A stretch of 64,000 nucleotides of DNA, from contig NZ_CP045725.1 in NCBI RefSeq assembly GCF_009646095.1, positions 744,001 to 808,000 on the forward strand, in the 5' to 3' direction. Position 1 is the first letter of the stretch; each line of letters starts with the position of its first letter. Under the pieces are notes generated by a model. It saw only the letters and a list, made by a program, of their open reading frames with translations, had not been told where the DNA came from and searched no databases. Below, piece after piece: positions 18,908 to 28,855 of this stretch. The position numbers and the translations under genes are program-made. This DNA comes from Raineyella fluvialis (lineage in GTDB: Bacteria > Actinomycetota > Actinomycetes > Propionibacteriales > Propionibacteriaceae).

Positions 18908-21900
18908 TCAGCCGTGGGTGGCCAGGTAGTCCTCGATCGTCGCCACGATGGCCGGGCGCAACTCGGCGGTGCTGATCACCCGGTCGACGGAGCCGACCCG
19001 CACGGCACGGTAGATGTCGTGGACGCCGTCGAACTCCGCCGCGACCTCGCTGATCTTCTCCGCGCGGACGGCCGGGCGCAGATCGTCCAGTTCGAGCTGG
19101 AGCTCGGCCCGCTCGGCCGGGGCGGCCGAGCGCAGCCGGGTCTCCAGGTCGGCGATCCGCGGGTCGGCCGCGGTGCGCTTGTCCACGTCCCGGCCGAAGA
19201 CCACCGCCGCGGCGGGGGCGCCGCCGATCACGGAGGCGTACGAGCCCTCGAGCGCCAGCACGGTCATGTTCTCGTTCAGCCGCTTGCTGAACACGACGAA
19301 CGCGCCGCCGTGGTAGCGGGAGATGACGACGAAGACGATCGGCCCGTCGAAGTTGACGATCGCCCGCCCGATCTCGGCGCCATACTCCAACTGCAGGTTG
19401 CGCATCGACTCCGGCGACCCGTCGAAGCCTGACAGGTTCGCCAGCACGACCACCGGCCGGTTACCGGAGGCGGCGTTGAGCGCACGGGCCACCTTCTTGC
19501 TCGACTGCGGGAACAGGGTGCCCGCGGTGTAGGTGTCCGGGCCGTCCGTGGGCGGGAAGCCGGCCCGCTTGACCGGCGTGGACTCGATCCCGAGCACCGA
19601 GACGGAGTGGCCACCTACCCGGGCGTCGATGACGACGGCGGTCTCCGCGTCCGCCATCCCGGCCCAGCGCTCGACCCGCGGATGGTCCTGGTCGCAGACC
19701 GCCGCGATGACCGTACGGATGTCGAACGGCTTCTTGCGGTCACGGTTGTGCTCAGCGCTGAAGATCTCGCCGACCGTGGAGAAGTCGGTGCCGAACGGGT
19801 GCGGGAAGCCGGACACGTCCCGATCGCTCGGGTCGGACGTCGGCGCCTTCCGCGGCCCGGCCTCGCCCGGCGCCACGTACGTACGGTCGTAGTGCCCCAG
19901 CAGGATGCCGAAGGCCGAGCCGAGGTCCGGCGCCCAGTACTGCGCCTGCCCGTTGGGCCCCATCACCCGGTCGTAGCCACCGATGCCGAAGTTGTCCTCG
20001 GCGGACACGCCCCCGGAGAAGTCCAGCGACTGCTTGCCGGTCAGCACCATCGCCGAGTCCGGCGTCATGACCAGGATGCCCTTGGTGTGCATGAGCATCG
20101 TGGCCTCGGCGTTCCAGTACGGCTGGGCGCCCACGTTGATGCCGGCCACGACGACGTTCACCACGCCACCGGCCTGGGTGTACTCGACGACGCGGCGCAG
20201 TGCCGCGGCGACCCAGTCCAGGTTCTCGCTGCCGGAATCCATCGAGATCCGCGCGCCCGAGCTGAGCGTGTACCACTCGATCGGGACACCCTCCGCCTCG
20301 GCCAGGTCGAGCGCCGCGATGACGCGGCGGCACTCGGGCTCGGCGAGCGCACCCAGTCCCTTGGTCGGGTCGCCGCAGAGCAGGATCCGGGTGACGCCCT
20401 CGGGGTGGACGGCGGTCGGTGTGGTGACGCGGGCCGCGATGATGCCGGCCGTGTTCTGACCGTACGGGCGCTCGACCGGCACCAGCCGGTCGGGCTCACC
20501 GGCTCCGACGCCGGGGTCGAGGTCGAGTTCGACCACGGAGCCGCCGTCGGCCATCGCACCGGCCAGCTCGTACGGGTAGACCAGGCCGCGCCGCTTGGCC
20601 CGCAGCACCTTGGCGGTGTAGTCGTCGAGCGGCTTGAGCGGCTCCGAGGGCGGCGCCTCGACCGACGCGGTCACCCCGCCACCGGGCCGGGTGTGGAAGC
20701 GGATCGCCAGCGGCACGACGCCGTCGCCCGGCTGGACGAACGAGCCGTGGGTGACGACCTCCTCGATGCCGGTTCCGTCGCTGAGCGGGGTGATCTTGTG
20801 CCGCAGCGCCATCACGTCACGCAGGTCGAGTTCGACCTCGGGCCAGACCCGCACCCAGACGTGGTTCATGTCCAGCCGGCCACCGGCAGACCCCATCGAG
20901 CTGCGCGTGCGGCGGATCGCCTCCAGGCAGTTCTCCACCGCGCGCTCGGCGTGCGGGATGCCGATCAGGCGCCCCTCCTCGTCGCGGACCGCCGCGAGTT
21001 GGCGGACCTGTGCCAGCGCCACGAGGCGCCGGTCGGCCGGGTTGGACCGGGCGACGCAGTCGAACAGCAGCACCCCCCGCGGCGCGGGCAGCCGGGTGTA
21101 GTCGAAGTTCTGCAGCCGCCACAGGTCCAGGCGGCGGAACACCATCGGGTGCAGGCCGCGCAGCCTGGCATCCTCGACGAGGCCGGCGCCACCCTCGGGT
21201 GCCGGGCGGAAGGTGAGGTAGTCGACGTCACCCTCGGCGGTGCACAGACCGACGACGACGCGGCGCAGCCGGTCGGGCCATCCCCAGCCGGACAGCACCG
21301 GACACAGTTCGGCGGCCGCCTCGTCCAGGTCGATGGCCCGGGGCCACAACACGTAGAGACCGACGGCGGCATCCTCATCGGGCCCACGGCGCGTCAGCAG
21401 GTCGGCGACCATCGTCGCGACCGGGCCACCGGCGCTCAATTCGTCGGCGCGCCCCAGCGAGGACAGCAGCATGGTCGGCTGGCCGTCCAGAACACACCGG
21501 GCGGTGACGACCGCGCGGCCGTCGACAGTGGCGGGGACCAGGTCAGAGAGTTCGTGGTCACTGTAGCGACGCCGCAGCAGCACTTCGAGCATCGGCTCGT
21601 GCGCGGGCACCCCGCGGGCGAGCCGCTCGGCCAGGAACGGGACGACCCGCTCGGGCACTGCCGCCAGCTCCTCGATGCGCTCGGCGTAGTCCTCGGCCTG
21701 GGGATCGGCGGCCAGCGCGGCGACCTCGGCCCGGGCGCGGGCCAGGACGTCGTCGCGCTCCGCGTCCACCTGCGGCTGATCGAACCACCGGAACCGCACC
21801 GAGCGCGCCAGGTCACCCACGGCGGGGAAACGACGCTGGGTGGCGCGGACGAGCCGCTCCAGTTCGGCGCGGGCGGTGGCGCCGACCGAGGCCTCGGGGG

Positions 21901-24436
21901 CCGGCTCCCCGATCCAGCGATCGAGCACCGCCAGCACCTTCTGGACATCGCGCGGCAGCCGCTGCAGCTCGGCGAAGATCCGGGCGACGGCCGCCTCAAG
22001 AGCGGGCGTCCGGTCGAGGGAGTCGACGCCGTAGTGGGCGAGGACGCGGGTCAGCCGCGCGGTGAACTGGGCGGGCAGGCCGGCGCGGGAGGAGTCCAGA
22101 CTCCTCAGGTACTGGTGGAAGTACTCGCGGTCGGAGTGGATGCGCAGCTCGGTACCCGCCTGCTCACCGAACGGGCGGTTACGGCTCAGCGCGGCGAGGT
22201 CGGCGAACAGCCCGACGAGCTCGATCTCCCCCGCCAGCACATCCGCACCGGCGTCGCGGGCCGCATCACGGGCCTGCAGGTAACGCCGCAGCGTCTGCGC
22301 GGCGGGGTCGACGTCGTAACCCAGCAACGAGGCGGACAGATCCGCCCGCAGGGCGTCCGCGAGCGCGGCCGGATCGGCTTCGCTGAGGGGCGCCGGCAGT
22401 TCGACGACGCCGGTCTCGGCCGCCGCGGCGACCTCGTCGGTGTCCCCGATCGGCTCCAGCCGGATCAGCGGGGCCAGGGTCTCGACCTGGCTGCCGGTCA
22501 TCACCTGCAGTTCCTTGACCCGGGCGGTGAACGGTGCCGGCAGGACCGTCTCCATCTTCATCGACTCGAGCACGATCACCGGGGCCCCGGCCTCCACGAC
22601 GTCACCGACGGCGACGGGGGTGGCGACGACGAGTGCCGGCGCGGGGGAACGGACGACGCCGCCCTCGTCGCGGCTGACCCGGTGGGTGACGCCGTTGACC
22701 TCGACGAGCTGCACCGGACCGTGGGTGGCGGTCGCCAGCCGGTACGTGTGCCCGTTGACGGTGATCCGCCCGTGGACGTCGTCGAGCCGGCCCACCCGGG
22801 CGTCGACGACCTGATCGCCGACGCTGACACGGTAGCGGTCCGGGCCGGTCTTCCAGGCGGTCACGATGTGGACGACGCCGCGCAGCTTGAGGTCGACCGA
22901 CCGGCCCGGCGAAGACTGCCACTGGGGACGGCCGCCGTACGCGGTCTCGAGCAGGCGGGCGATGTCGACCGCCTCGTCCTCGTCGTAGGCCTGGATGGCC
23001 GCGGCGACCAGGGCGATGCCGGAATGCTGGTCGGCGACCAGGCCGCCCGCGGCCCGGGTCCGGTCGATCCAGCCGGTGTCCGCCCAGTCGGGCGTGCTGC
23101 CGTCGGCCAGCGGGTGGCCGGTGACCTCGGGGCGGTCGAGCAGTTCGAGGATGAAGCTCTTGTTGGTGGCACCGCCGTCGATCACGACGGTCGTCTCGGC
23201 GAGGGCGCGGCGCAACCGGCCCAACGCCTCGGCGCGGGTGCGGCCGAAGGCGATGATCTTGGCGATCATCGAGTCGAAGTCGGCGGGGATGGTGTCGCCC
23301 TCGGCGACGCCGGTGTCGACGCGGATGCCGGGGCCGGCCGGCAGGTCGAGCCGGGTGATGCGTCCGGGAGCGGGGGCGAAGTCCCGATCCGGGTCCTCCG
23401 CGTTCAGCCGGGCCTCCACGGCGTGACCGGACTCGGTCGGCCGTTCGACGAGACGGCCACCGCCGGCGACGTGGATCTGCGCCTTGACGAGGTCGAACTC
23501 GTTGGTGATCTCGGTGATCGGGTGCTCGACCTGCAGGCGGGTGTTGACCTCGAGGAACGCGAACTGCCGCTCCACCGGCTGGTAGAGGAACTCGACGGTG
23601 CCGGCACCCCGGTAGCCGACGGCCAGGGCGAGCCGCTCGGCGGAGGCCTTCAGGTCGTCGGTCTGTTCGGGGGTGAGCAGCGGGGAGGCCGACTCCTCGA
23701 CCACCTTCTGGTTGCGCCGCTGGACGGTGCAGTCGCGCACACCGATCGCCCAGGCGGTGCCCTGGCCGTCGGCGATGATCTGCACCTCGACGTGGCGGGC
23801 GCCGGTGACCAGCTTCTCCAGGAACACCACACCGGAGCCGAAGGCACGCTCCGCCTCGTCACGGGTCCGCTGGTAGGCGTCGGCGAGATCCGCCGCCGAC
23901 TCGACCTTGCGGATACCGCGACCGCCACCACCGGCGGTCGCCTTGAGCATCAGCGGGTAGCCGACCCGGTCGGCTGTTGCGAGGGCCTCGTCCAGGGTGT
24001 CGACACCACCGCGGGACCACGGCGCGACGGGGACGCCGACCTCCTCGGCGATGAGCTTGCTGCCGATCTTGTCGCCCAGCTTGCGCATCGCGTCACCGCT
24101 GGGGCCGATGAAGGTGATGCCGAGGCTCTCGACGAGGTCGGCGAAGCCGGCGTCCTCGGCGACGAATCCCCAGCCGACCCAGACCGCGTCGGCACGTACG
24201 TCCTGCAGGGTCTTCGCCAGCAGTGCGTGGTTGAGGTACGGGCGCCCGCTGGCGGGGCCGATCGAGTACGCCTCATCCGCCTCACGGGCGAACATCGCCG
24301 TACGTTCCGCGTCGGTGTACAACGCGATGGTGGTGATCGGTGGCTCGTCGGGCCGCTCGGCATTCAGGTCGCGGACGGCGTGGATGAGCCGCATGGCGGC
24401 CTCACCACGGTTGACGATCGCGATGCGCTGGAACAC
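18908..24436 (-). CDS. Single-chain biotin-dependent acyl-CoA carboxylase (BC-BCCP-CT fusion)
   Basis: The protein of about 1842 residues contains a whole carboxylase. Biotin carboxylase (1-490) has IAIVNRGEAAMRLIHAV, an ATP-grasp glycine loop TAGGGGRGIRKVE and VNTRLQVEHPITE. A biotin carrier has ESMKM (lysine near 625). A central region of about 550 residues has no motif I know. Carboxyltransferase halves (about 1270-1842) have LVYPYELAGAM, NLSGFDGSPESM and a final YHGGAFVVFSK...EGSYASVIGGAPAAAVVF block. It would carboxylate acetyl-, propionyl- or a longer acyl-CoA. The GTG start has AGGAG seven bases upstream; the longer open frame to 25144 is antisense to the FGGY kinase and rejected. Most actinobacterial carboxylases use separate alpha and beta chains. 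Confidence 0.9.
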   Translation of the reverse strand: MFQRIAIVNRGEAAMRLIHAVRDLNAERPDEPPITTIALYTDAERTAMFAREADEAYSIGPASGRPYLNHALLAKTLQDVRADAVWVGWGFVAEDAGFADLVESLGITFIGPSGDAMRKLGDKIGSKLIAEEVGVPVAPWSRGGVDTLDEALATADRVGYPLMLKATAGGGGRGIRKVESAADLADAYQRTRDEAERAFGSGVVFLEKLVTGARHVEVQIIADGQGTAWAIGVRDCTVQRRNQKVVEESASPLLTPEQTDDLKASAERLALAVGYRGAGTVEFLYQPVERQFAFLEVNTRLQVEHPITEITNEFDLVKAQIHVAGGGRLVERPTESGHAVEARLNAEDPDRDFAPAPGRITRLDLPAGPGIRVDTGVAEGDTIPADFDSMIAKIIAFGRTRAEALGRLRRALAETTVVIDGGATNKSFILELLDRPEVTGHPLADGSTPDWADTGWIDRTRAAGGLVADQHSGIALVAAAIQAYDEDEAVDIARLLETAYGGRPQWQSSPGRSVDLKLRGVVHIVTAWKTGPDRYRVSVGDQVVDARVGRLDDVHGRITVNGHTYRLATATHGPVQLVEVNGVTHRVSRDEGGVVRSPAPALVVATPVAVGDVVEAGAPVIVLESMKMETVLPAPFTARVKELQVMTGSQVETLAPLIRLEPIGDTDEVAAAAETGVVELPAPLSEADPAALADALRADLSASLLGYDVDPAAQTLRRYLQARDAARDAGADVLAGEIELVGLFADLAALSRNRPFGEQAGTELRIHSDREYFHQYLRSLDSSRAGLPAQFTARLTRVLAHYGVDSLDRTPALEAAVARIFAELQRLPRDVQKVLAVLDRWIGEPAPEASVGATARAELERLVRATQRRFPAVGDLARSVRFRWFDQPQVDAERDDVLARARAEVAALAADPQAEDYAERIEELAAVPERVVPFLAERLARGVPAHEPMLEVLLRRRYSDHELSDLVPATVDGRAVVTARCVLDGQPTMLLSSLGRADELSAGGPVATMVADLLTRRGPDEDAAVGLYVLWPRAIDLDEAAAELCPVLSGWGWPDRLRRVVVGLCTAEGDVDYLTFRPAPEGGAGLVEDARLRGLHPMVFRRLDLWRLQNFDYTRLPAPRGVLLFDCVARSNPADRRLVALAQVRQLAAVRDEEGRLIGIPHAERAVENCLEAIRRTRSSMGSAGGRLDMNHVWVRVWPEVELDLRDVMALRHKITPLSDGTGIEEVVTHGSFVQPGDGVVPLAIRFHTRPGGGVTASVEAPPSEPLKPLDDYTAKVLRAKRRGLVYPYELAGAMADGGSVVELDLDPGVGAGEPDRLVPVERPYGQNTAGIIAARVTTPTAVHPEGVTRILLCGDPTKGLGALAEPECRRVIAALDLAEAEGVPIEWYTLSSGARISMDSGSENLDWVAAALRRVVEYTQAGGVVNVVVAGINVGAQPYWNAEATMLMHTKGILVMTPDSAMVLTGKQSLDFSGGVSAEDNFGIGGYDRVMGPNGQAQYWAPDLGSAFGILLGHYDRTYVAPGEAGPRKAPTSDPSDRDVSGFPHPFGTDFSTVGEIFSAEHNRDRKKPFDIRTVIAAVCDQDHPRVERWAGMADAETAVVIDARVGGHSVSVLGIESTPVKRAGFPPTDGPDTYTAGTLFPQSSKKVARALNAASGNRPVVVLANLSGFDGSPESMRNLQLEYGAEIGRAIVNFDGPIVFVVISRYHGGAFVVFSKRLNENMTVLALEGSYASVIGGAPAAAVVFGRDVDKRTAADPRIADLETRLRSAAPAERAELQLELDDLRPAVRAEKISEVAAEFDGVHDIYRAVRVGSVDRVISTAELRPAIVATIEDYLATHG

Positions 24437-24666
24437 GGGGTTCTCCTCTGCTCGGGCGGCGGACGCTGACGTTGAGGAGACTGACACTCCGGCGCGGTGA
24501 TCCGCCAGCCCGGACGGGGCCTTCCGGCCGCAGAACCCCCTTCCGCCGCGGCCGATCCAAAATCGACCCGAGAACCTTTGTCGGATTCCCACACCGTCGC
24601 CGGGCCATGCTGCGGAACGCCTCCGGCCCGGTATCGGCCGTCTTGACCGGCTGGCAGACTGGGGCC

Positions 24667-26427
24667 ATGTGCAACGGTGTCGTGCTCGGAGTGGACATCG
24701 GGACGTCCAGCACGAAAGCGGTCGCCCTGGGCCTCGACGGACGGATCCTGGGCACCGCCACCCGCCTGCACGGGGTCGAGCGTGACCAGCCCGGACAGGT
24801 GTCGATGGACGGCGAGATGTGGTGGGCCGAGTTCGTCGACCTCTGCACGGAGCTGAGCCTGCACGCCCCCGAGGGCTTCGCCGCCGTCGGCGTCTCCGGC
24901 ATGGGACCGACACTGATGCTGTGTGACGACGAGGGACACGGCGTCGCCTCCGCCGCCCTGTACGGCGTGGACTCCCGATCGGTGGAGCAGATCCGGCAAC
25001 TGGAGGACCTCTTCGGTGCCGACGAGATCTACCGCACCGGGGATTCCTACCTCTCCACACAGTCCGTCGGCCCGAAGTTCGCCTGGTTCCGCCAGCACCG
25101 ACCCGAGGCGTACGCGTCGGCGCGGACCTTCCACATGCCGGCAAGCCTGCTGGTGCAGCGACTGACGGGCGAGTACGTCCTCGACCACCAGTCGGCAGGC
25201 CAGTGCACCCCGCTCTACGACTCCGGTCGGCTGGACTGGTATCCCGACCGGTGCGAGCTGGTCGCCCCGGGCATCACCTTCCCGCGGCTCGCCTGGGCCG
25301 GTGACCGCGCCGGCGAGGTCACCTCCGCCGTCGCCGCAGGCGTGCCGGGCCTGCGGGCCGGGGCCCCGGTCACCGTCGGCAGCATCGACGCCTGGGCCGA
25401 GGCGTACTCCGTCGGCGCGACCGATGTCGGGGACCTGATGGTGATGTACGGGACGACGATGTGTCTCGTCGCCACGCAGGATCATCGGGTCCGCCACCCG
25501 ATGATCTGGGGCAGTCCCGGCCTGGAGCCGGGGCGCTGGAGCCTGTCCGGCGGGATGGGGACGTCCGGCGCCATCACCGCCTGGATGCGGGACCTGCTCG
25601 GCTCCTCGACGTACGACAGCCTCACCTGCGACGCGTCGGCCTCCGGGCCGGGGGCACGGGGGCTACTGATGCTGCCGTACTTCGACGGGGAACGGACGCC
25701 GATCCTCGACCCTGGGGCGCGGGGGACGATCTGCGGGCTCACCGTGCGCCACACCCGCGGGGACCTGTTCCGGGCCACCCTCGAGTCGGTCGGCTACGCC
25801 GTCCGCCACCATCTGGAGGCGTTCCGGGAGGCGGGAGTCGGACCGGACCGGGCCGTGGCGGTGGGCGGCGGGGTGCGCTCCTCCCTGTCGGCCCAGCTCG
25901 TCAGCGACATCACCGGCCTGCCGCAGCAGATCACCCGCGTCACCATCGGCGCCTCGTACGGCGACGCCCACCTGGCCGCCCGGCTGGTCACCGATGTCCC
26001 CGCGGTGGCGGAGTGGAACCCCGTCGTCCGCATCATCGAGCCCTGCCCCGAGCCCGCGTACGAGGAGTTGTACGGGCTCTACCGCCAGCTGTACGAGGCC
26101 ACCAGCGGGATCCAGCACGCCCTGGCGGCCTACGGGCCAGGGACACGAAAAGGGCCGAAGACCTGTCGGTCTCCAGCCCTGTGGATGTCGGTTGACGGAC
26201 CGCGCTGTCCGCCACCAGGAAATCTCAGAAACGCACGCCGTAGTCGGTGGACTTGGCCTGCTCCGCGCCCAGCTGACGGAAGCCGTTCAGCCAGATGTCG
26301 ACGAGGGACTTCTTGGGGGTCTCGTTGCGGTCCTGCATGGGGTTCTCCTTCTCGTACGCTCCCGGATCCGACATCACCGGGACATGCAAAAGGGGCCTCC
26401 CCGGTGAACCGGTTCGTGCCCCTTTGA
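24667..26427 (+). CDS. FGGY-family carbohydrate kinase (xylulokinase-like) with abnormal C-terminal extension
   Basis: The first ~490 residues are a normal FGGY kinase: VVLGVDIGTSSTKAVALG at the N-terminus, HMPASLLVQRLTGEYVLDHQSAG, MMYGTTMCLV-like adenosine pocket sequence, and AVGGGVRSSLSAQLVSDITGLPQQ in the C-lobe. Family members end near LYRQLYEATSGIQHALAAYG (about 26130). Here the frame runs on for about 95 codons to 26427. That tail is low-complexity, reads through the terminator of the opposite-strand peptide gene and covers that gene completely. A single extra base near 26131 would instead end the protein at 26195. The tail is probably not real protein. It is divergent from the carboxylase with a 230-base shared control region that shows no site I can name. 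Confidence 0.8.
   Translation: MCNGVVLGVDIGTSSTKAVALGLDGRILGTATRLHGVERDQPGQVSMDGEMWWAEFVDLCTELSLHAPEGFAAVGVSGMGPTLMLCDDEGHGVASAALYGVDSRSVEQIRQLEDLFGADEIYRTGDSYLSTQSVGPKFAWFRQHRPEAYASARTFHMPASLLVQRLTGEYVLDHQSAGQCTPLYDSGRLDWYPDRCELVAPGITFPRLAWAGDRAGEVTSAVAAGVPGLRAGAPVTVGSIDAWAEAYSVGATDVGDLMVMYGTTMCLVATQDHRVRHPMIWGSPGLEPGRWSLSGGMGTSGAITAWMRDLLGSSTYDSLTCDASASGPGARGLLMLPYFDGERTPILDPGARGTICGLTVRHTRGDLFRATLESVGYAVRHHLEAFREAGVGPDRAVAVGGGVRSSLSAQLVSDITGLPQQITRVTIGASYGDAHLAARLVTDVPAVAEWNPVVRIIEPCPEPAYEELYGLYRQLYEATSGIQHALAAYGPGTRKGPKTCRSPALWMSVDGPRCPPPGNLRNARRSRWTWPAPRPADGSRSARCRRGTSWGSRCGPAWGSPSRTLPDPTSPGHAKGASPVNRFVPL
26148..26180 (-). terminator. Intrinsic terminator of the small-peptide gene 1
   Basis: On the minus strand a stem of AGGGC plus GGAGACC pairs with GGTCTTC plus GCCCT around a GACA loop and is followed by TTTT. 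It lies 45 bases after the stop of the peptide gene at 26225. Its presence supports a genuine short minus-strand transcript. Confidence 0.75.
26225..26338 (-). CDS. Uncharacterised 37-residue peptide, paired copy 1
   Basis: The peptide begins MQDRNETPKKS and ends STDYGVRF, with a central W-x-x-GFR. AAGGAG sits seven bases before the ATG. It is 19/37 identical, with no gaps, to the peptide at 26498-26611: MQDR, ET, KKS, W16, GFR (19-21), Q27, K29 and the C-terminal GVRF are shared. No signal peptide, membrane segment or cysteine is present; the middle (11-31) looks like an amphipathic helix. It has its own -10 box, hairpin leader and terminator. I do not recognise the family. An in-frame upstream ATG at 26374 would add 12 residues but is less likely given the ribosome site. 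Confidence 0.75.
   Translation of the reverse strand: MQDRNETPKKSLVDIWLNGFRQLGAEQAKSTDYGVRF
26388..26425 (-). promoter_or_regulatory. Hairpin leader of peptide gene 1 (attenuator-like)
   Basis: On the minus strand AAAGGGGC pairs with GCCCCTTTT, and an inner CCGG-TTCA-CCGG hairpin sits inside. The outer stem followed by TTTT has terminator form and lies between the promoter and the ribosome site. It starts within a few bases of the transcript start predicted from the -10 box. The second peptide gene carries the same two-tier structure at 26664-26702, followed in both cases by CATGTC. Confidence 0.65.
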
Positions 26428-26435
26428 CGTGGTAA

Positions 26436-26441
26436 ATACTA
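26436..26441 (-). promoter_or_regulatory. -10 element of peptide gene 1
   Basis: TAGTAT on the minus strand ends 10 bases before the hairpin leader, so transcription should begin right at the hairpin. No good -35 hexamer is visible 16-18 bases upstream, so activator dependence or an alternative sigma factor is possible. Confidence 0.45.
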
Positions 26442-26497
26442 CGCCCTCCGCAGATCGGTCCCGCCGGGGGGTAGCCCTTCGTCTCGGGGGCGGCGGC

Positions 26498-26611
26498 TCA
26501 GAACCGCACGCCGTGTTCCAGGGCCTTGGACTGGGCCTCAGCGATCTCGCGGAACCCGTCCATCCAGAGTTCGGTGAAGGACTTCTTCGAGGTCTCCTGA
26601 CGATCCTGCAT
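26498..26611 (-). CDS. Uncharacterised 37-residue peptide, paired copy 2
   Basis: The peptide begins MQDRQETSKKS and ends ALEHGVRF. Length is identical to copy 1 and the conserved positions are listed there. AGAAGGAG lies seven bases before the ATG. Substitutions between the copies are mostly conservative (D/E, L/I, K and R kept), which argues for selection on protein sequence rather than a chance open frame. It is upstream of copy 1 in the direction of transcription, with 159 bases between the two coding regions. Each copy has a separate promoter and leader, so they could be expressed under different conditions. Function unknown. Confidence 0.75.
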   Translation of the reverse strand: MQDRQETSKKSFTELWMDGFREIAEAQSKALEHGVRF

Positions 26612-26663
26612 GACTGTCTCCTTCTTACGGGTTTGTCGTCGGTCGGCAGATCGGCGACATGAC

Positions 26664-26702
26664 AGAAGGGGTCGGCCCGGTGTCCCGGAACCTTCCCCTT
26701 CG
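26664..26702 (-). promoter_or_regulatory. Hairpin leader of peptide gene 2
   Basis: On the minus strand GAAGGGG pairs with CCCCTTC and encloses a CCGG-GACA-CCGG hairpin. Layout and following CATGTC match the leader of peptide gene 1, while the loop differs (GACA versus TTCA). The structure begins about 8 bases after the -10 box at 26711-26716, so it is the very 5' end of the transcript. Confidence 0.6.
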
Positions 26703-26710
26703 ACAGCCTC

Positions 26711-26739
26711 AGTTTATGACTCCTACAAAACTAAATCAA
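26711..26739 (-). promoter_or_regulatory. Sigma-70-type promoter of peptide gene 2
   Basis: TTGATT (26734-26739) and TAAACT (26711-26716) on the minus strand are separated by exactly 17 bases. It is one of the clearest housekeeping promoters in the window and sits in an unusually AT-rich patch of 40 bases. Confidence 0.7.
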
Positions 26740-26761
26740 TGACCCGTGCCACCTCGAGGCG

Positions 26762-27544
26762 TCACAGTCCCACGCCGTCGACCGTCAGCTCGAGCCGCTC
26801 GGTGTAGAACGCCAGGAGGCCCTTGACCGGGAGCCCGTCGTGCAGCGGCTCCTCGTACGACCAGACGACGTCGGGCAGGGTCTCGTCACCCACGCTCGCC
26901 GACCAGTACGAGGCCCGGCCCTTGTAGGCGCACACGGTGTGGGAATCGGTGGGCACCAGCAGGTCGGTGGCGACGTCCTCGCGGGGTATGTAGTACCGAG
27001 GGCTGAGTCCGGTCTCGAAGAGCACGATCGCCCGCCTGGTGTCCGCCAGGACCAGCCCGCGATGGCTGACCACCACGTGCCGGTCGGTGGGCAGACAGTC
27101 GATCCTCGAGAACGGGTCGCGCGGACTTCCTATCGCCTGCTGGTCCTCCTCGAGCCACTGGTCGAAGGCGGTCCAGTCGAGGACGACCATCCCGGCCAGG
27201 TCGGGGTCCGCCGGTCGGAAGGCGGCGCCGACCAGGTCGCGCTCCGGTAGTCGTACGGTCAGCGACCCACCCGGAGTGCTGTGCAGGGTGAAGGGGTCCC
27301 GCGGGGTGAGGATACCCGGCCTGCCCTCCGGGGCCGGCCGCTCGTCGGGGACGAGATCCCCGACGAGGTCGGCCTCAGGCACGGCGTAGGACGGCACCAC
27401 CCGCCGGGGCTCCCAGACGAGGACGGCGGCCCGGCTGTCCACCACGGTTCGGTCCCCGGACAGAGCCCTGATCCGTTTCGGCGTCGGTTCGAAGCGCAGC
27501 TGCTCCCGGGCTCCGGCGAGCAGGTCCTGTACGCGAGTGGCCAT
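26762..27544 (-). CDS. DUF427 domain protein, two tandem copies
   Basis: The 260-residue protein carries two DUF427 units. The first (about 30-120) has VVDSRAAVLVWEPRRVVPSYAVPE. The second (about 160-255) has VLADTRRAIVLFETGLSPRYYIPREDV and YKGRASYWS. The family is widespread in Actinobacteria and of unknown biochemical role; I know of no proven activity. The gene ends 23 bases before the peptide-gene-2 promoter and lies downstream of the Nramp-related transporter, 15 bases away, so it may belong to that operon. Confidence 0.88.
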   Translation of the reverse strand: MATRVQDLLAGAREQLRFEPTPKRIRALSGDRTVVDSRAAVLVWEPRRVVPSYAVPEADLVGDLVPDERPAPEGRPGILTPRDPFTLHSTPGGSLTVRLPERDLVGAAFRPADPDLAGMVVLDWTAFDQWLEEDQQAIGSPRDPFSRIDCLPTDRHVVVSHRGLVLADTRRAIVLFETGLSPRYYIPREDVATDLLVPTDSHTVCAYKGRASYWSASVGDETLPDVVWSYEEPLHDGLPVKGLLAFYTERLELTVDGVGL

Positions 27545-27559
27545 GCCCCCAGTGTGACC

Positions 27560-28855
27560 TCACTGGCCGAAGAAGGTCAGCCACAGCATCGCCGCGATGC
27601 ACACCACGACCAGGGCGATGACGATGTAGTAGACCGACGTCACCGCCCGCCCGGCGACGTAGGTCCCCATCAGCCGTGAGTCGCGCGCGATGCCGGCCAT
27701 GTAGGCAAGCAGCGGCAGTAGCAGGACCGCATTGAGCACCTGGGTGAGCACGAGGATGGGAACCAGGGAGACCCCCGGCAGCAGGACCAGCACGACCCCG
27801 ACCACGGTCACTGCGGCGAAGGTCCCGTAGAACAGCGGCGCCTCGCGCGGACTGTCGTCCAACGCGGCCGGCCGACCGGCGACGTCGCAGACGGAGTAGG
27901 CCGTCGACAAGGGCAGGATCGAGGCGGCCAGTAGTGCGGCACCGAGCAGCCCCACGGCGAAGAGCATCTCGGCGAGTGGACCGGCGAGCGGCTGGAGGGC
28001 CACGGCGGCGCTGGCGGCGTCGGTGATCTCGATCCCGTGCGCGTGCATCGTGGCGGCGGTGGCGACGACGACGAAGAAGCCGATGACGCCGGTGAGGATG
28101 GCCCCGGTGACAACGTCGATCCGCAGCAGGCCGAGTTCCTTGGTGCCGAGCTTCTTGTCGACCGCGTACGACTGGATGAACGCCAGGCCCCACGGTGCCA
28201 GGGTGGTGCCGAAGGTCGCGGTGATGATCAGGACGGCGTCGCGGGTGAGCGGCATCCGCGGGACAACCATGCCCTGCACGGCGGCCCCCCAGTCGGGACC
28301 GGAGAGGAAACCCGCGCCGACGTACGCCAGGAAGACCGCTGAGAGGACGATCAGCACCCGCTCCACGCCCCGGAAGCCACCGCGCAGCACCAGCATCGAC
28401 ACCGCGATAGCCGCGATCGGCACGGAGATGTAGCGGGAGACCCCGAAGATCTCGGTGCCGGCGGCGATGCCCGCGAACTCGGCGGTGGTGGTGCCGATGT
28501 TCGCGACGACGAGGGCGGCAATGCTCAGCACCCCCGCCCTGGCACCGTAGCGCTGCCGGATCAGGCCCGCCAGGCCCTGCCCGGTCACCACACCGATCCG
28601 CGCGCCGAGGTCCTGGAAGAGGATGAGGGCGATGGTCGAGACGACCAGGACCCAGAGCAACTCGTAGCCGTACGAGGCGCCCAGCGAGGAGTACGTGGTG
28701 ATGCCGGCGGGATCGTCGTCCGAGAGGCCGGCGATGAGGCCTGGGCCGACCACGGCCCCCAGGGCGGTAGCACTCATGGCCATCCGGCGCAGGCGTCCGA
28801 CCCTGGTGGTCCCGGCCTCCTCGGTCGTCTCGACCTGTTGCGTCAGGGTGTTCAT
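27560..28855 (-). CDS. Nramp-family divalent metal transporter, Nramp-related Mg2+ transporter type
   Basis: The 431-residue protein has about 11 membrane segments and the Nramp fold. The metal-site motif of TM1 is DPAG (48-51) instead of DPGN, and TM6 has APW (near 220-222) instead of MPH. It therefore lacks the methionine and histidine of manganese/iron Nramps. This change is the hallmark of Nramp-related Mg2+ transporters (NRMTs). Its start overlaps by four bases the stop of an MgtE_N-CBS protein, whose domains sense Mg2+ in MgtE channels. Mg2+ (or Mn2+) import is inferred. The longer open frame to 29119 is antisense noise. Confidence 0.85.
   Translation of the reverse strand: MNTLTQQVETTEEAGTTRVGRLRRMAMSATALGAVVGPGLIAGLSDDDPAGITTYSSLGASYGYELLWVLVVSTIALILFQDLGARIGVVTGQGLAGLIRQRYGARAGVLSIAALVVANIGTTTAEFAGIAAGTEIFGVSRYISVPIAAIAVSMLVLRGGFRGVERVLIVLSAVFLAYVGAGFLSGPDWGAAVQGMVVPRMPLTRDAVLIITATFGTTLAPWGLAFIQSYAVDKKLGTKELGLLRIDVVTGAILTGVIGFFVVVATAATMHAHGIEITDAASAAVALQPLAGPLAEMLFAVGLLGAALLAASILPLSTAYSVCDVAGRPAALDDSPREAPLFYGTFAAVTVVGVVLVLLPGVSLVPILVLTQVLNAVLLLPLLAYMAGIARDSRLMGTYVAGRAVTSVYYIVIALVVVCIAAMLWLTFFGQ

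Follow-up and report, generated by a model that had tools for sequence, protein, structure and literature searches.

A family of 37-residue small proteins in Raineyella, with two tandem paralogous genes in Raineyella fluvialis

Results and discussion

The 64,000-nucleotide stretch of Raineyella fluvialis DNA analysed here (the window) carries two tandem minus-strand genes, w1 and w2, which encode related proteins of 37 residues and belong to what looks, from sequence comparison, like a young family of small proteins (36–37 amino acids) restricted to Raineyella. On our leading reading, to which we give about an even chance, the genes of this family are expressed from promoters of their own as short mRNAs, and the product would be a soluble helix that alters the activity of a partner protein on which it docks. 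Coding and the structure of the units are supported by the sequences; the docking, the partner and any regulation are what we infer from them. The family is new, none of the profile libraries searched contains it, and small proteins of this sort are ordinary in kind. It is a well-bounded, taxonomically restricted family: comparative tests mark it as coding, it is duplicated, one species lacks it, one locus shows it in decay, and its likely unit borders are mapped here. Families of this sort illustrate how new small proteins originate and become distributed within one genus. We know of no open question that hinges on this one before its partner is found.

Two paralogous genes and their relatives

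The upstream gene (w1, positions 26498–26611, minus strand; MQDRQETSKKSFTELWMDGFREIAEAQSKALEHGVRF) was identified from the open reading frame (ORF) listing and coding tests, and the downstream gene (w2, positions 26225–26338, minus strand; MQDRNETPKKSLVDIWLNGFRQLGAEQAKSTDYGVRF) from the listing and a homologue in another Raineyella genome (G003). An earlier sequence-only reading had described two 37-codon frames identical at 19 of 37 residues in an ungapped alignment, and this was confirmed. As a chance control, we took the 23 window frames that measure exactly 37 codons from an ATG, GTG or TTG to the stop, with the first residue set to M; the runner-up among their 253 pairs reached only 12 of 37 identities, so the similarity of w1 and w2 is not chance. 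Each ATG is preceded by the Shine–Dalgarno sequence AAGGAG (26618–26623 for w1 and 26345–26350 for w2, both minus strand) at a gap of 6 nt rather than the seven first given. Both genes had also been called too short for most gene callers, although their 114 nt (stop included) is not below common limits, the minimum gene length in Prodigal being 90 nt. A search of the window genome with w1 (E up to 1) returned these two copies only.

A two-row profile (w1 and w2), run at E 0.01 over 96 genomes of relatives with the window genome (G000) included, found four further intact copies, namely L003, L005 and L006 in Raineyella antarctica LZ-22 (G002) and L004 in G003. Intact copies occur in two of the three other Raineyella genomes (G001, G002 and G003), with one to three per genome that has any; the profile search found none in G001, where a 30-base match is not a copy and sits inside a 552-codon ORF. 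With the frame kept in all four relatives, the view that w1 and w2 are real paralogous small-protein genes was borne out. Multi-copy arrays in actinobacteria at large, which the sequence-only reading had proposed to look for, were not found: among the genomes sampled, all members belong to Raineyella, and the window genome alone has the pair in tandem. The family is dispensable, because one Raineyella genome is without it and R. antarctica also holds a decayed copy.

Wider searches with a six-row profile matched four of 198 genomes of the family (E 0.05), three of 391 of the order (E 0.01), two of 394 of the class (E 0.01) and one of 396 of the phylum (E 0.001), besides the three matched among the relatives; these samples overlap between ranks and contain the window genome, and the family, order and phylum limits could hide remote members. 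Two partial weak matches aside, every match fell in one of three Raineyella genomes (G000, G002 and G003), and no convincing member was seen outside Raineyella in the sampled family, order, class and phylum genomes. Candidate L007 (18 residues within a 5699-residue open frame, E 0.027) was judged chance from its table row only, and L010 (20 residues, E 6.9e-4, with WMIGFR and without the conserved ends) from its translation. A profile scan of viral contigs gave no match, and the same type of scan misses members on genome contigs, because R. antarctica copies were overlooked there: the two-row scan returned nothing from a genome-contig collection that includes R. antarctica, and the six-row scan two of the three copies in that species. 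Plasmid and phage records, searched with the single member L003, yielded none.

The earlier statement that the peptides belong to no named family held, in that NCBIfam and PDB sequences gave no match and Pfam and PHROGs only strays, each touching one of the six members (E 0.014 for DUF7168, 0.044 for Spike_JR2, 0.15 for RMF and 0.21 for Dec-1 in Pfam; 0.0052 for phrog_1757 and 0.18 for phrog_26055 in PHROGs). Judging by titles and abstract openings, none of the papers listed by literature searches dealt with this family, and the name 'Raineyella' was absent from the titles and abstracts listed.

Evidence for coding

Frame-specific conservation and the codon-position composition of the homologues mark the family as protein-coding, and on this comparative basis w1 and w2 are genes and not frames open by chance. 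Neither the start nor the stop shifts among the six copies. Frame-disrupting indels, which the sequence-only reading had named as a sign of chance frames, are absent from the four intact homologues, whose only indel is a single in-frame codon missing from L006. GC3 is 0.86–0.95 and GC2 0.32–0.43 over the six copies. When the observed substitutions were re-placed at random (300 nulls, BLOSUM62 conservation, all 15 pairs pooled), conservation in the sense frame exceeded the null with a z of 12.6, which none of the 300 nulls reached and which is inflated, the 15 pooled pairs not being independent and the six related sequences coming from three species. The other five frames gave z values of −5.65 to 2.49, the highest from antisense frame 0, which passes weakly (one of 300 nulls reaches its value); single-pair frame tests on five pairs gave p values of 0.0002 to 0.0022.

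These results bear on the idea that the frames are chance or an antisense tail of the FGGY kinase gene, which is already contradicted and which we regard as scarcely tenable. The kinase frame in the window does lack a stop until 26427 and covers w2 in antisense, but the sense score stands against antisense values of 2.49 or less, the G003 kinase frame stops before the peptide, and no kinase gene of this sort overlaps w1 or any of the three copies in R. antarctica.

By the simple synonymous/nonsynonymous ratio that had been proposed as a check, purifying selection is weak: pooled pN is 0.262 and pS 0.342, and pN/pS runs from 0.35 to 1.28 over the 15 pairs, with three above 1 and one at 1.00. 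Such values speak against very strong selection, and we ascribe them to moderate constraint, with synonymous change perhaps partly held down by the high GC3.

Promoters, leaders and the 3′ element

All six copies are preceded by a −10-like box and a Shine–Dalgarno sequence, and in each a hairpin is predicted where the transcript would begin. The promoter-like site of w1 (26711–26739, minus strand), located by pattern search, consists of TTGATT (26739–26734), a 17-nt spacer and TAAACT (26716–26711); position 26739, where the sequence-only reading ended its feature, is the base at which the −35-like box begins. The motif TTGAYT-N17-TAAA[CG]T lies upstream of w1, L003, L005 and L006, and a longer pattern, TTGAYTTNGTT-N10-CATAAA, itself derived from these four copies, has four matches in the four Raineyella genomes, all before the same copies, and none when reversed as a control. 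A consensus promoter scan of the window region reported none, the w1 site having 8 of 12 matches where the scan asks for 9. Upstream of w2, a putative −10 box, TAGTAT (26436–26441, minus strand), stands 7 nt before GTCAAAGGGG; both w2 and L004 have TAGTAT or TACGAT at this place and no −35 consensus, and the likeness of the two boxes suggests a second promoter type. The separate promoters of the sequence-only reading are to this extent upheld, as the promoter-like regions of w1 and w2 appear to differ.

In all six copies GTC, followed by purines and GGGG, lies 6–7 nt past the −10-like box and opens the predicted 5′ hairpin, so hairpin leaders can be predicted throughout, as had been proposed; not all of them are unusually stable. 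In some cases the stretch that was folded extends a few bases beyond the inferred 5′ end on its upstream side. The w1 leader hairpin (GAAGGGG...CCCCTTC, 26665–26701, minus strand) folds with a z of −2.64, and the folds of w1, L003, L004 and L005 are more stable than those of shuffled sequences (z −2.15 to −4.97), but those of w2 (AAAGGGGC...GCCCCTTTTG, 26386–26428, minus strand; z −0.28) and L006 (z −1.27) are no better than shuffles.

Five of the six units (w2, L003, L004, L005 and L006) share a conserved 3′ element, placed by alignment, folding and a terminator scan at 26146–26211 (minus strand) in the window, in which a CGGAC-n6-GTCCG hairpin is followed by an intrinsic terminator, GGGCTGGAGACC-n4-GGTCTTCGGCCCTTTT (26180–26151). 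Because no such element follows w1, transcripts of w1 may read into w2 or end at the w2 leader hairpin, which finishes in TTTT and was not listed by the terminator scan. Under strict filters, a model of the element finds the five units and one further locus in R. antarctica (L026). It also has weak matches in four of 191 family genomes outside the genus (E 0.004–0.08), which we judged by eye to be chance, their flanks looking coding or like a plain terminator with nothing unit-like. Rfam at gathering score has four matches in the window (tRNAs and SRP RNA), none at the peptide genes, and none of its nine matches below threshold in 25900–27600 comes near the gathering score.

The 3′ hairpin and terminator might themselves function as a small RNA, by base pairing or by binding a protein, with the peptide a second or secondary output of a dual-function RNA. 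Consistent with this, 31 of the 68 aligned columns, the CGGAC/GTCCG stem among them, are invariant over the five copies, and the decayed R. antarctica copy keeps the element. We nevertheless think such an RNA rather unlikely: conservation at the protein level is specific to the frame, so the peptide is a selected product, a strong terminator accounts for much of the 3′ conservation, w1 is without the element, and under the strict filters the element is found only in Raineyella, the weak matches elsewhere apart. The small stem, being invariant, gives no covariation signal, and when folded alone the L005 element (z −1.16) pairs differently, as does the first stem of w2. Quite unlikely, in our estimation, is a combined form, in which a self-contained mRNA module born in the genus (dedicated promoter, 5′ hairpin, mini-protein and invariant 3′ hairpin) would serve as a small RNA and at the same time supply an adaptor mini-protein, its paralogues having arisen by multiplication and using separate types of promoter.

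On the preferred reading, that of a helix docking on a partner protein, each unit would have a promoter of its own and give rise to a short mRNA that carries a 5′ hairpin, is ended by the strong terminator in w2 and the four relatives, and is translated from the good Shine–Dalgarno sequence; the paralogues, with their different promoter types, would supply the peptide under different conditions.

The peptides and their proposed function

The residues M1, R4, W16, G19, F20, R21, Q27, G34 and F37 are invariant over the six copies. The pattern of conserved ends around a variable middle read from the window pair does not survive the comparison, as W16, G19-F20-R21 and Q27 are invariant and V35 and R36 vary, and neither does a fixed C-terminal GVRF, the six ends being GVRF, GVRF, GISF, GKRF, GLRF and GLRF. 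Cysteine is absent from w1 and w2, as noted earlier, but L006 has one. Net charge lies between −2 and +2, and inspection of the peptides revealed no signal sequence and no membrane or hydrophobic segment. AlphaFold2, run on four rows, predicts one helix over residues 5–32 with modest confidence (mean pLDDT 73.9, pTM 0.38; mean pLDDT 86 for residues 11–20 and 82 for residues 21–30). The amphipathic middle of the sequence-only reading is thus predicted to be helical and is amphipathic to a varying degree: the helical moment of the central 18 residues is matched by 0.4% to 15% of shuffles, and by fewer than 5% in three of the six members.

With these properties, the product is most likely a cytosolic small protein that, as modelled, binds a partner protein through an amphipathic helix. 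The soluble, near-neutral helix (about residues 5–32) would dock through its invariant W16/F20 face, together with R21 and Q27, and so change the activity of the partner, which is probably encoded elsewhere, as the neighbours of the copies are not conserved. Small regulatory proteins occur in bacteria and archaea; SgrT and MntS are examples from E. coli. Like them, and like a Methanosarcina mazei small protein reported to inhibit ammonium transport (PMC10714827), the peptides come from very short stand-alone genes and presumably bind a larger partner; unlike them, they have no sequence-family match, are confined to one genus and are duplicated.

The W-[LM]-x-G-F-R stretch could alternatively form a helix that binds the ribosome in stationary phase in the manner of RMF, a weak rival that we consider improbable. 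RMF binds the ribosome, with dimer formation in stationary phase, and is a basic protein. The likeness to RMF (PF04957) is a W-L/M-x-G-aromatic-R motif in a 14-residue local match (TELWMDGFREIAEA against RSQWLGGWREAMAD), for which hhalign against E. coli RMF, a comparison chosen after the Pfam RMF match had been seen, gave E and P values of 0.0036 for the single pair and a probability of only 9%. Membership was rejected, as the one member of six that matches Pfam RMF scores 12.6 bits against a gathering cut-off of 27.9; moreover, the peptides are near neutral, and none of their loci is among the matches of the RMF model over the four Raineyella genomes (E up to 10).

A secreted or processed signal peptide, or the precursor of a ribosomally synthesized and modified peptide (RiPP), with the C-terminal G-x-x-F as its active end, would suit the invariant G34 and F37 and the tandem copies in one genome. 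We hold this very improbable. No signal sequence is seen, the centre is the most conserved block, the end has GKRF and GISF variants, and the conserved adjacent modification, export and receptor genes expected of RiPP or quorum-sensing precursors were not found: over five loci (the window and the four relatives), with ORFs up to about 1.5 kb away judged by eye and partly by Pfam, no processing, export, modification, protease or receptor gene was seen to recur beside the copies. The suggestion of a signalling or modified peptide made from the window sequence is not supported.

Evolution and genomic context

The w2 gene and L004 each lie next to the same FGGY kinase gene, at its 3′ end and in convergent orientation, and are mutual closest relatives (27 of 37 residues identical); by position and sequence, w2 is the orthologue of the single G003 copy. 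As w1 is nearer to L003 (24 of 37) and L005 (23 of 37) of R. antarctica than to w2, the tandem likely joins two older paralogues with different promoter types and is not a fresh duplication, a view drawn from pairwise identities in a small sample. In G001, which has no peptide gene here, the carboxylase stop and the kinase segment that aligns are about 100 bp apart. Loss in G001 would be the simplest reading, because its kinase (87% to that of G003 against 82–83% to that of the window) makes it sister to G003, yet the kinase site is without the peptide.

The R. antarctica locus (L026:430–550) is, from its sequence, a decayed copy of the unit, in which the 3′ element is kept and only the last residues of the ORF remain, their end being shifted. 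Beside the copy are a short tandem repeat and what we take by eye, from its motif, to be an ISL3-type insertion-sequence end. The proximity of the latter, the one to three intact copies at different sites and the position of one copy near a Fic/Doc ORF would fit a small mobile or selfish cassette, or half of a toxin–antitoxin pair, but similarity fades outside the promoter and terminator in the unit alignment, two species share the position of the copy next to the FGGY 3′ end, and no conserved partner ORF was seen. Type I toxins, furthermore, are hydrophobic membrane-spanning small proteins with antisense RNA, unlike the near-neutral, probably soluble helix predicted here, and inspection of the peptides shows no hydrophobic segment. 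We place the chances of a cassette or toxin–antitoxin half as low as those of a secreted or processed signal.

The copies are found at four types of site and have no neighbour in common (in loci of about 3 kb, where ORFs up to about 1.5 kb away were assessed by eye and Pfam was used to name six proteins): an FGGY kinase lies beside w2 and L004, DUF427 beside w1 and L005, an aminotransferase class V beside L006, the Fic/Doc ORF near L003 and a carboxyl transferase beside L004. Since the sites differ in this way, the FGGY kinase and DUF427 neighbours are probably incidental. A link between DUF427 and the peptide was dropped, the DUF427 gene being upstream of w1, on the opposite side (downstream) of L005 in R. 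antarctica, and 0.92 Mb away from the peptide gene in G003. In the window, positions 26762–27544 (minus strand) encode a 260-residue DUF427 protein (Pfam match at residues 158–249), which the three peptide-bearing Raineyella genomes have and G001, searched at E 1e-20, lacks, four genomes being too few to read more into this.

The FGGY kinase frame of the window (24667–26427, plus strand) lacks the stop at which its G003 homologue finishes and runs on for about 80–100 codons, antisense through w2; a gene caller may have annotated this extended kinase, hiding w2. The carboxylase/FGGY kinase region is rearranged by gene order, as the genes for the large carboxylase and the kinase point away from each other in the window (18908–26427) and towards each other in G001 and G003 (L015 and L016).
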